From Acidobacteriota bacterium (GTDB lineage: Bacteria; Acidobacteriota; Terriglobia; Acidiferrales; UBA7541): DNA of 46,680 bases. Positions 39,794 through 41,798 of this stretch are shown here, one piece after another. Numbering within the stretch: the stretch's first letter is position 1; every line of letters begins with the position of its first letter. The notes under the pieces are model-generated. The model was not told where the DNA came from and did no database searches. It saw only the letters and a list, made by a program, of their open reading frames with translations. A program made the translations under genes and the position numbers. The stretch lies in contig QHYM01000135.1 of NCBI GenBank assembly GCA_003223295.1, positions 1-46,680 on the forward strand, written 5' to 3'.

Positions 39794-40588
39794 TTATCCC
39801 GCGATGCGAAATTGGCCGAGGACCACTCGCGCGAGCAGGGCGCCGCCCACCACGGCAATTGAGAAGCTCAGAAGCGTGCCAATGAGAAAATATTCGGCAA
39901 AGTGCTCGGACTTGAATTCAGGATAGCGCGCAATGGCCTTGGCGGCGAGAATGAGCCCGGCCGTGCCGGGGGACTGCAGCAACAACGCGGTGAGAAGCAA
40001 GAAGCGTTCGAGCCAGCCGATATACAGCCCCGCGTTTTTCATGGGCTCGCCGCGATTCTCGGGCCGATAGAGTTTGACGTTCTCCGCCAATGGGCGGGTC
40101 AGCGCGCGAATCAGATAGCCGCCGCCAAAAATCACGCCGATGTAAATGACCGGCACAACGAGTAGTTTGCTCGGAATCGCGCGCCCTCTTCCGAGCAACG
40201 CAGTCACTTCCGCGAGAGGCAGGCCGGGCGCGAGCAGCCAGGCGGCAAGAGCGACGCTCAGGAAATGAAGGAACTGGTCGGAGATGTAGGCGATGGCTCC
40301 GTCTTTAACGAGAGCCTTTTGGGCGAGCCCGATTTTCGCGAAGTCGATCAGCACATGAACGAGCGAGAGAGCGAGGATGACCAAGTGCGTCCGCAGCAGT
40401 AAAGTGGATCCCGCGATGAAGAAGCCCACAAGAATGACCGCCGCGAGATAGTGCGTAAGGCCGTGAAGAAAATAAGCGAAGAGCTTGCCGCGCCGCTTTT
40501 GTTCGACGAGGCCATGCGTCTGAAAAACAAAGTCGGTCAACAGATGAGCCAGATATATCGCCAGAAACGCCCGGAAGAGGATTTGCAT
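39794..40588 (-). CDS. DUF3307 integral membrane protein, SatD partner
   Basis: A 264-residue protein with about six to seven membrane helices, from ATG 40588; upstream codons belong to the operator-containing gap. The DUF3307 signature is at the N-terminus: LFRAFLAIYLAHLLTDFVFQ then KLFAYFLHGLTHYLAAVILV, with His residues in HLLTDF, HGLTHY and LVHVLIDFAK. Then come KDGAIAYISDQFLHFLSVAL, VIYIGVIFGGGYLIRALTRP, and two C-terminal helices (ERFLLLTALLLQSPGTAGLI, YFLIGTLLSFSIAVVGGALL). The His/Asp pattern inside helices may form a metal or proton site, but function is unknown. It starts 37 bp after satD, with operator-like sites in the gap, so the two are one regulated unit. Confidence 0.85.
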   Translation of the reverse strand: MQILFRAFLAIYLAHLLTDFVFQTHGLVEQKRRGKLFAYFLHGLTHYLAAVILVGFFIAGSTLLLRTHLVILALSLVHVLIDFAKIGLAQKALVKDGAIAYISDQFLHFLSVALAAWLLAPGLPLAEVTALLGRGRAIPSKLLVVPVIYIGVIFGGGYLIRALTRPLAENVKLYRPENRGEPMKNAGLYIGWLERFLLLTALLLQSPGTAGLILAAKAIARYPEFKSEHFAEYFLIGTLLSFSIAVVGGALLARVVLGQFRIAG

Positions 40589-40605: not shown

Positions 40606-40627
40606 AAATGTACGTTTTTGTACAACT
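40606..40627. promoter_or_regulatory. Operator in the satD-DUF3307 gap
   Basis: AAATGTAC-N6-GTACAACT, the same architecture as the three sites upstream of satD. It overlaps the satD stop region and lies 18 bp before the DUF3307 start. Confidence 0.5.
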
Positions 40628-41264
40628 ACAAAAAAGCGCGTTCGATGAACGCACCGGCTACTTTAACAGTTTCGGCGAGCTGCCAATAGTGTCCGCGTTT
40701 CAGGTTTCGGGAAACCGTCGAAACATCCAGCTTGAGCCGCCTTGCGGCGTGCTCGAGCGCCGGTTGCTCCAGGAATTGGCGGATGGCCTGCCACTGTTTT
40801 GCGGTGATTTGGAACATCAGGGTATCGTGCAATCCGTAAATGAGATTGATCGTTTGGTTGAAGGGTTCATTGTAGGAGGCAAACGCAGTCAGAACCTCGA
40901 ATTTGAAGAGGCTATTGGCCTTGACGCTTTCGATGGCCCAGCGCGCGAATTGAAACGCTTCGCCCGTGAGCCGGTTGACCGGCGGCTGGATGCGGTTGGC
41001 AACGTCGCCGATACCGACGCCCACGCGGAGAGGCAGCGGCTGAAGGGCGGCGCGCAGGTCCAGAAGCAGAGCGGGGAGCGACGACAGCTCTCCGGTAATC
41101 GTTTGGAATTCATCGCCCGCGGTCACGCTATACGGCAAGCGGATGAGCTTTTGACGTAACTGCTTTTCTGACACAGCCGCGAGCTTTTTCCCCAACAGGG
41201 TGCGTACGTCCTTGCGGGTGCTCGAAGCCATGACGTCGGCGACCACGACGGCGTAGATTTCCAT
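40626..41264 (-). CDS. SatD-family protein with C-terminal helix-turn-helix
   Basis: A 212-residue protein of the SatD family, named from a streptococcal acid-tolerance/secretion operon, where its role is undefined. Residues about 1-135 show MEIYAVVVADVMASSTRKDV, PYSVTAGDEFQTITGEL, LRVGVGIGDVANRI and GEAFQFARWAIESVKA. The order ADVxxS / AGDEF / RVGVGIG / G-AF--A resembles class III nucleotide cyclases, a likeness that is my own reading. Residues about 165-205 form an HTH (LEQPALEHAARRLKLDVSTV, SRNLKRGHYW). The protein can therefore bind DNA, and the palindromes upstream of its own gene are the obvious targets. ATG at 41264, with a weak AGGGTGG before it. Autoregulation is inferred. Confidence 0.85.
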   Translation of the reverse strand: MEIYAVVVADVMASSTRKDVRTLLGKKLAAVSEKQLRQKLIRLPYSVTAGDEFQTITGELSSLPALLLDLRAALQPLPLRVGVGIGDVANRIQPPVNRLTGEAFQFARWAIESVKANSLFKFEVLTAFASYNEPFNQTINLIYGLHDTLMFQITAKQWQAIRQFLEQPALEHAARRLKLDVSTVSRNLKRGHYWQLAETVKVAGAFIERAFL

Positions 41265-41291: not shown

Positions 41292-41313
41292 ATTTGTACG
41301 CAAACGTGCAAAG
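41292..41313. promoter_or_regulatory. satD operator 1
   Basis: ATTTGTAC-N6-GTGCAAAG, three mismatched positions from the perfect palindrome at most. It lies between the probable transcription start and the satD ATG. Its centre is exactly 28 bp from operator 2. Confidence 0.6.
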
Positions 41314-41319
41314 CTGTGT

Positions 41320-41341
41320 ATTTGTACATAAAAGTACAAAT
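41320..41341. promoter_or_regulatory. satD operator 2
   Basis: A perfect palindrome, ATTTGTAC-N6-GTACAAAT, with spacer ATAAAA. It is separated from each neighbouring operator by six bases. Confidence 0.7.
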
Positions 41342-41347
41342 CATAGA

Positions 41348-41369
41348 ATTTGTACAATATCGTACAAAT
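41348..41369. promoter_or_regulatory. satD operator 3, overlapping the -10 box
   Basis: A perfect palindrome, ATTTGTAC-N6-GTACAAAT, spacer AATATC. The predicted -10 box lies inside it, so a protein bound here would block RNA polymerase. Confidence 0.7.
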
Positions 41370-41382
41370 CAAGAAAAGTCAA
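41354..41382 (-). promoter_or_regulatory. satD promoter
   Basis: On the minus strand, TTGACT (41377-41382), a 17-bp spacer, then TATTGT (41354-41359). Transcription would start near 41347 and give a leader of about 83 bases containing operators 1 and 2. Confidence 0.55.
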
Positions 41383-41438: not shown

Positions 41439-41798
41439 TCAATAGCGCGGTGGCATGGCTGCAGCGTTCGCAGCGGCCTGGACCGGCTTGTAACCGCAGC
41501 TCGCCGCCTTGCGCATCGCTTCCAGTCCTTCGGCGTTAGACAGCAGCGCCGTGGTCTGGCATTCGCGTAAGGAGCCGCCGGCGCCAAACGCCAAAGCAAT
41601 CGCGGCCGCCGAGATGCTGTCCGGCATGTCGGTGATCAGCACGGCGTCGTACTGCCCGAACGCGAAGTAAGAGCTCAGCACTCTTCCTCCGAGTTTCTCG
41701 ATGGGGGCCCTTACGGCGTCGAACCGGTTCTGAGGATTCGCAATGAGCTTGGCTAGTGCTTCCGGCGTGTAGCTTACCTGATGAAGATAGAACGACAT
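41439..41798 (-). CDS. GYD-domain protein
   Basis: A 119-residue small protein of the GYD family: YLHQVSYTPEALAKLIANPQ, NRFDAVRAPIEKLGGRVLSS, and the naming motif region YFAFGQYDAVLITDMPDSIS (GQYD for GYD), then AAAIALAFGAGGSLRECQTT and ALLSNAEGLEAMRKAASCGY. The fold is ferredoxin-like, near the EthD/Dabb group; function is unknown, with a possible role in small-molecule handling. The ATG at 41798 has AAGGAGG about eight bases upstream. It ends about 40 bp from operator 3 of satD but is transcribed towards it, so the satD promoter region separates them. No partner gene is evident. Confidence 0.85.
   Translation of the reverse strand: MSFYLHQVSYTPEALAKLIANPQNRFDAVRAPIEKLGGRVLSSYFAFGQYDAVLITDMPDSISAAAIALAFGAGGSLRECQTTALLSNAEGLEAMRKAASCGYKPVQAAANAAAMPPRY

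Follow-up and report, generated by a model that had tools for sequence, protein, structure and literature searches.

Autorepressors that work through phased operators are already known as a kind, and in the case of phage lambda CI several dimer palindromes are set at fixed spacing over a promoter. Among other described systems, regulators of the PucR/CdaR type carry a helix-turn-helix after a GGDEF-like domain, the palm of class III cyclases holds two metal-binding aspartates, on strand 1 and in the turn between strands 2 and 3, and type II toxin-antitoxin operons encode an autorepressor upstream of its partner. The satD gene of Streptococcus mutans has been described as an acid-tolerance gene, and we know of no activity for the SatD protein. 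The sat operon of S. mutans (cited in PMC11323703) contains a SatD of the same Pfam family as the one considered below; Streptococcus genomes share with our locus a DUF3307 gene along with satD (64 of 70 satD genomes) and a 28-bp array upstream of satD. Among the titles and abstracts listed, none credits SatD or DUF3307 with an operator, with binding to DNA or with autoregulation, in agreement with the sequence-only reading, which knew of no described SatD operator, and none gives a mechanism for either family (PF16264 and PF11750).

Here we describe phased palindromes at an acidobacterial satD locus in a stretch of 46,680 nucleotides, hereafter the window. The palindromes are very probably operators of SatD, which would act as a two-domain repressor of satD and DUF3307 through phased dimer sites. 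The arrays, their conservation and their co-occurrence with satD were read from the sequence, and the promoters they overlap and the domain architecture of SatD were predicted from it. As in lambda CI, several palindromes lie at fixed spacing over a promoter, and a single binding protein and autoregulation are proposed; unlike lambda CI, SatD has a different fold, its sites are spaced by 28–29 bp, and the half-site diverges across phyla with the spacing kept. Judged by the titles and abstracts listed, what is new is a candidate operator for the SatD family, a register that stays constant from phylum to phylum even as the letters change, and the proposed use of a cyclase-like palm in such a role.

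Organization of the satD locus

The satD gene (40626–41264, minus strand) encodes a protein with a predicted palm/cyclase-like domain at residues ~1–130 and a predicted helix-turn-helix at ~155–190. Its match to PF16264 (45.3 bits against a gathering cut-off of 29, residues 7–189) bears out the earlier assignment of the gene downstream of the palindromes to the SatD family, and all 23 aligned SatDs, the window's among them, matched PF16264 at E 0.01. The second gene of the unit (39794–40588, minus strand) encodes a predicted membrane protein of the DUF3307 family (PF11750; 57.3 bits, gathering cut-off 23), for which an all-helical model of low confidence was obtained (pLDDT 66, pTM 0.55). The NCBIfam search gave no match, the PDB sequence search gave no convincing relative (best E 0.16), and in PHROGs only DUF3307 matched, its best hit being a phage membrane-protein family. 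A PADLOC search at E 0.01 returned no match for the window SatD, the window DUF3307 or one Streptococcus SatD, and a role in anti-phage defence was rejected on this search. At one distant locus (L109), the gene preceding satD ends in KKAKKKRK, which resembles the terminus of ffh, as expected for the sat operon.

A motif scan of the window located matches to ATTTGTAC-N6-GTACAAAT at 41292–41313, 41320–41341 and 41348–41369, starting exactly 28 bp apart with 6-bp linkers, as the sequence-only reading had described for three 22-bp palindromes. Operator 1, the satD-proximal site (41292–41313), has two mismatches to the consensus and has counterparts at the 28-bp phase in relatives; the arms of operator 2 (41320–41341) and of the distal operator 3 (41348–41369) are perfect, with 0 mismatches, so that the earlier count of two perfect palindromes among the three also stands. 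The upstream neighbour, a GYD-domain gene on the same strand, ends at 41439 and satD starts at 41264; since the array sits in this gap, satD is its obvious target of control. Operator 4 (40606–40627; core TTGTAC-N6-GTACAT at 40608–40625; three mismatches), which the sequence-only reading had not listed, falls where relatives also have sites, its core directly following the satD stop codon TAG (40628–40626, minus strand). The degenerate operator 5 (40599–40583; TTGTAC-N5-ATGCAA) has a spacer of 5 bp and lies 26 bp from operator 4, start to start; the ATGCAA that forms its right half is also where the DUF3307 gene begins. The unit is laid out as a promoter with three operators, satD, two further operators and DUF3307. 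In the whole window 0.03 matches at up to three mismatches are expected by chance and four were observed, a number reached by none of 100 shuffled windows.

Conservation of the arrays within the order

In 95 genomes of the window's order, SatD was detected in 29 by a family search. Arrays were sought independently of SatD, as TTGYAC-N6-GTRCAA occurring twice 28 bp apart with at most three mismatches, and tandem 28-bp arrays were present in 31 of the 95; the reversed control pattern matched none. Arrays occurred in 28 of the 29 satD genomes versus 3 of the 66 without satD (Fisher p ~1e-19, for genomes of one order that are hence non-independent). Upstream palindromes are thus conserved among satD orthologues, a point on which the sequence-only reading had made itself dependent. 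The single satD genome without a 28-bp array (G072, locus L096) has its gene cut by the contig end and its sites 29 bp apart.

The palindromes are also kept beside satD at the level of single loci. One scan of genome contigs gave 50 loci, and its 35 acidobacterial loci (L065–L099), which overlap strongly with the 29-genome set, all had sites beside satD at two mismatches or fewer, with SatD identities of 37–85%. No window-type motif was found near satD in the 15 more distant loci (L100–L114). In the 35 loci and the window, site pairs near satD were spaced by 28 bp 69 times, by 29 bp three times, and by 27 and 32 bp once each; the remaining values of the spacing histogram come from distances of two steps or from weak matches that overlap.

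Three satD-less genomes (L047, L054 and L060) carry an array, which counts against SatD as the binder. These arrays, together with an additional array elsewhere in the window's genome, would be explained if a different transcription factor bound the palindromes and controlled satD, with SatD no more than the regulated gene. The distribution of arrays between satD and satD-less genomes (28/29 against 3/66) argues against such a factor, as does the predicted helix-turn-helix of SatD itself, and we regard this explanation as unlikely.

The exceptional arrays differ in their surroundings. At L047 (1501–1546), in a genome with no SatD or DUF3307 match, the array lies between DinB- and MOSC-like genes (by eye), where relatives carry satD–DUF3307, and the flanking genes match the window's neighbours by eye. 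L054 (1108–2335, in the genome of L089) has a satD without its N-terminal half and without the upstream array, and retains the helix-turn-helix half of satD, an intact DUF3307 gene and the junction sites. The two-site array of L060 (1501–1546; TTGCAC/GTGCAA, perfect consensus) adjoins sigma-factor- and anti-sigma-like genes (by eye) with satD absent, and is the third exception. The extra array of the window's genome (G000:C306:131-178, identical with L003:131-178) has two sites 28 bp apart and lies ~370 bp upstream of a sensor-kinase-like gene (by eye), with the contig start nearby and satD not in view. Arrays away from a whole or half satD were noted only in C306, L047 and L060. Each of the 95 genomes held at most three tandem pairs, and on this count a global regulator was rejected for the window's clade.

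Half-sites and the satD–DUF3307 junction

The 71 perfect-consensus sites combined their arms as T/A in 37 cases, C/A in 18, T/G in eight and C/G in eight. The two arms vary independently, as suits a pair of DNA half-sites bound by protein but not the stem of an RNA hairpin. RNA hairpins that steer translation or termination, either from the satD leader or from the junction, were considered since the arms are able to pair and the start codon of DUF3307 falls within junction sites. The combination of C on the left with A on the right would break the RNA pair in 18 of the 71 sites, a further eight would form U–G wobbles, and nothing in RNA obviously calls for a constant phase of 28 bp. RNA hairpins were rejected on the independent variation of the arms and the 18 broken pairs, and we consider them barely credible.

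Of the 35 acidobacterial loci, 33 were examined at the junction (L080 and L096, near a contig end, were omitted) and the DUF3307 gene was found in 26. Its start forms the right half of a site, at three mismatches or fewer, in 21 of these; the half-site containing the start codon reads ATGCAA or GTGCAA, and ATGCAT in two loci. Three of the other loci have a site 3 bp off register and two have none. Outside the window's clade, 28 or 29 was the best period in just 10 of 40 satD 3′ ends, and in six of the seven with a significant period. This second cluster is therefore not general and belongs mainly to the window's clade.

In two loci (L091 and L086), the translation 3′ of satD shows only the C-terminal half of DUF3307, which is strongly conserved (NAGMYIGWLERF...), and the respective genomes (G042 and G045) gave no DUF3307 match. 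From these loci, the C-terminal half of DUF3307 may perhaps be a separate domain.

A shared phase with different letters in distant SatDs

To cover SatDs outside the window's clade, a motif-free scan for four 7-bp half-sites (inner gap 4–9, period 22–40) was run on the 225 bp upstream of 42 satD genes, with 60 dinucleotide shuffles per region. Duplicates (L117, L118, L123, L146 and L147) had been removed before this number was reached, and L115, L116 and L119–L121, repeats of L109, L105, L102, L100 and L111, were not added. The best period was 28 in 20 regions and 29 in 11 (31/42 in total), and 27 of the 30 regions with p < 0.05 were at 28 or 29. In the same scan, 70 control regions that precede other genes of these loci had 28 or 29 as the best period in seven cases, with no peak there (31/42 vs 7/70, Fisher p ~5e-12); seven of the 70 reached p < 0.05, two of them at 29, which counts against the signal. 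Because some of the 42 genes are close relatives, clusters at 50% identity were also counted, and 12 of the 19 outside the window's clade had a significant array at 28 or 29. Against generality, another period was best in 11 of the 42 regions, significantly so in three (L113 at 24, L122 at 26 and L145 at 34). In Streptococcus, 28 of 30 loci, the best-scoring 30 among the 70 satD genomes, were best at 28, scored here without shuffles.

The letters of these arrays differ. We identified TGCACC-N8-GGTGCA in a Pyrinomonadaceae genome (period 28) and in Rokubacteria (29), CAACC-N6-GGTTG in acidobacterial paralogues (29), TGAAG-N7-CTTCA in an actinobacterium (29) and TGTCC-N8-GGACA in Streptococcus (28). 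The recognition helix varies with the half-site, as judged by eye and with no tree test: STVSRNLKRG goes with GTACAA, QNVTKRL with GGTGCA, SA(L/F)xKRLK with GGACA, QAVSKQV with GGTTG and SAVSQR with CTTCA. L136, with a QNISKQ helix and a TCAAC/GTTGA half-site, departs from this match. Three loci from small genomes with the helix QNVSKRL have GGTGAAA-like palindromes, none of them significant; the best period was 28 in L135 and L137 and 39 in L134. In one case (L132), a SatD relative of 131 residues, consisting of the palm alone without a helix-turn-helix, has no phased array.

Across the SatD family the half-site changes and the 28–29 bp phase mostly stays. This, together with the C-terminal helix-turn-helix, makes SatD itself the likely binder and supports the sequence-only reading, which had suggested that one protein would bind the sites cooperatively; were another transcription factor responsible, a separate one would be needed each time, as the half-sites differ by SatD subfamily with the register kept.

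Overlap with predicted promoters

The best sigma-70-like promoter was predicted for 36 Bacilli loci, comprising 30 Streptococcus loci and six others. Its -10 element (mostly TATAAT) lies at operator position 7, within the spacer, in 32 of the 36, and its -35 element, TGGACA or TAGACA in most cases, coincides with an operator's right half, likewise in 32; in 31 loci both elements lie on neighbouring operators 28 bp apart, all 31 with a 17-bp promoter spacer. The 28-bp phase suits this placement, since 12 + 23 = 28 + 7, and the constraint on the phase may thus come partly from fitting sites round one promoter and not from protein–protein contact alone. With the -10 inside an operator in 32 of the 36 Bacilli loci, operators upstream of it are untranscribed from that promoter, which also speaks against RNA hairpins.

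In the window, the best-scoring promoter of the region has a predicted -35 TTGACT at 41377–41382 and a predicted -10 TATTGT at 41354–41359 (both minus strand, 17-bp spacer), the latter within the spacer of operator 3. Among 35 acidobacterial regions, one from the window and the others from 34 loci (L089, with no upstream array, was omitted), the -10 of the best promoter was at site offset 23, with the -35 on the left half, in 19, at offset 8 within the spacer in eight, the window included, and elsewhere in eight. This register is weaker evidence than that of the Bacilli, because the weights were approximate E. coli values and the half-site itself resembles a -35 element.

Palindromes of fixed spacing thus cover satD's own predicted promoter, as they would in an autorepressor. 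Operators placed over core promoter elements point to repression in bacterial promoters generally, and the position of the sites on these elements suggests repression here. The overlap could be compatible with an activator too, although a -10 within the site argues for repression. The regular, phased arrays of two to three dimers look like nucleating sites, and some operators lie past the predicted promoter or between the two genes, as might be expected if SatD were mainly an activator or nucleated a larger nucleoprotein complex. Against this stand the operators on both core elements in 31 of the 36 Bacilli loci and on one core element in 27 of the 35 acidobacterial regions, and the local nature of the arrays, with no more than three tandem pairs per genome. 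We therefore hold an activating or nucleating role to be very unlikely and favour SatD as a repressor of its own operon.

The SatD protein

An AlphaFold2 model of SatD built from 23 sequences (pLDDT 92, pTM 0.89) has a beta-alpha palm domain at residues ~1–130, followed by a C-terminal domain of helices that includes a helix-turn-helix, of which we name residues 181–190 as the putative recognition helix on the predicted model. The palm aligned with GTP cyclohydrolase III (2qv6) with Z 12.3 and 2.1 Å over 113 residues, and with adenylyl/guanylyl cyclases, Cas10 and GGDEF domains with Z ~10; the 50 structural matches listed, at Z 9.6–12.3, were chains with a palm domain. SatD shares its predicted N-terminal palm fold with class III cyclases, GTP cyclohydrolase III, Cas10 and GGDEF proteins; unlike them, it has the palm fused to a helix-turn-helix, and identity in the matches listed is 11–19%. 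Two aspartates are conserved at matching places in the secondary structure, D10 in 81 and D51 in 83 of 84 aligned SatDs. Their apparent location at the metal-ligand places of the cyclases suggests that SatD may bind nucleotide and metal, as far as prediction goes. In two Streptococcus SatDs (L156 and L161) residue 10 is N, a substitution hinting at lost metal binding in some members.

By E-value, the first Foldseek matches were 3onq and 9f80, which are presumably regulators of the PucR/CdaR type, yet their TM-scores were weak (0.25–0.39, with an rmsd of ~15 Å over the whole chain) and the Pfam search of SatD gave no match to the PucR/CdaR families.

DUF3307 and the essentiality of satD

In 147 Streptococcus genomes, SatD (E 1e-6) was detected in 70 and DUF3307 (E 1e-5) in 64. 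DUF3307 occurred in 64 of the 70 satD genomes versus none of the 77 without satD, and six genomes had SatD with no DUF3307 match. In the acidobacterial order, DUF3307 was present in 25 of the 29 satD genomes versus one of the 66 others, and that one (G029) has a half satD. In these genomes satD occurs without DUF3307, and DUF3307 hardly ever without satD; this near-absence of DUF3307 without satD is consistent with DUF3307 needing SatD to control it.

The DUF3307 gene, scored as broken when its open frame was shorter than 200 residues, when it held in-frame stops or when its match was split, was apparently broken in 10 of the 64 Streptococcus genomes. A split satD was seen in two genomes (G598 and G722), both among these 10, versus 0 of the 54 with an apparently intact DUF3307 (p 0.02). 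In two more genomes with broken DUF3307 (G626 and G682) the satD matches begin at profile position 12, and their satD may also be altered.

The order of genes resembles that of a type II toxin-antitoxin operon in that the putative autorepressor SatD lies upstream and DUF3307 is rarely found without satD; in comparison with such operons, toxicity of DUF3307 is only hypothetical, and the PADLOC search gave no match. According to PMC11323703, satD is present in 178 of 249 S. pyogenes genomes, and no other accessory gene scores in the top quarter for essentiality. A dependence of DUF3307 on satD may explain this essential score.

A model for SatD

We propose that the N-terminal palm of SatD, of the nucleotidyl-cyclase kind, is probably a sensor that binds nucleotide or metal, and that one SatD dimer would bind each palindrome. 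Adjacent dimers would sit, probably cooperatively, over the satD promoter in a fixed 28-bp register of 8/3 turns, with half-sites alternating every 14 bp, or one and a third turns; by arithmetic, assuming 10.5 bp per turn, three dimers would spiral once round eight turns, or 84 bp. The second cluster, which takes in the 3′ end of satD and the DUF3307 start, would serve as a second block, and both clusters together would shut down the satD–DUF3307 operon until a nucleotide-type signal at the palm domain released SatD. Such a ligand, like repression in preference to activation and harm from unregulated DUF3307, is inferred.

More tentatively, and with the balance somewhat against it, SatDs across bacteria might form a single family of nucleotide-sensing or nucleotide-making transcription factors, in which the cyclase-type palm directly drives the helix-turn-helix on phased 28–29 bp operators; they would guard against their operon partner, the DUF3307 membrane protein, with satD an addiction-like essential accessory gene. 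If this were true, a cell that lost the repressor would die only if it carried the partner gene. With the present results SatD becomes a testable autorepressor with a putative cyclase-like sensor, and a candidate operator is given in several phyla. As the register is constant at 28–29 bp and the letters change, specificity may be read from alignments across the family.
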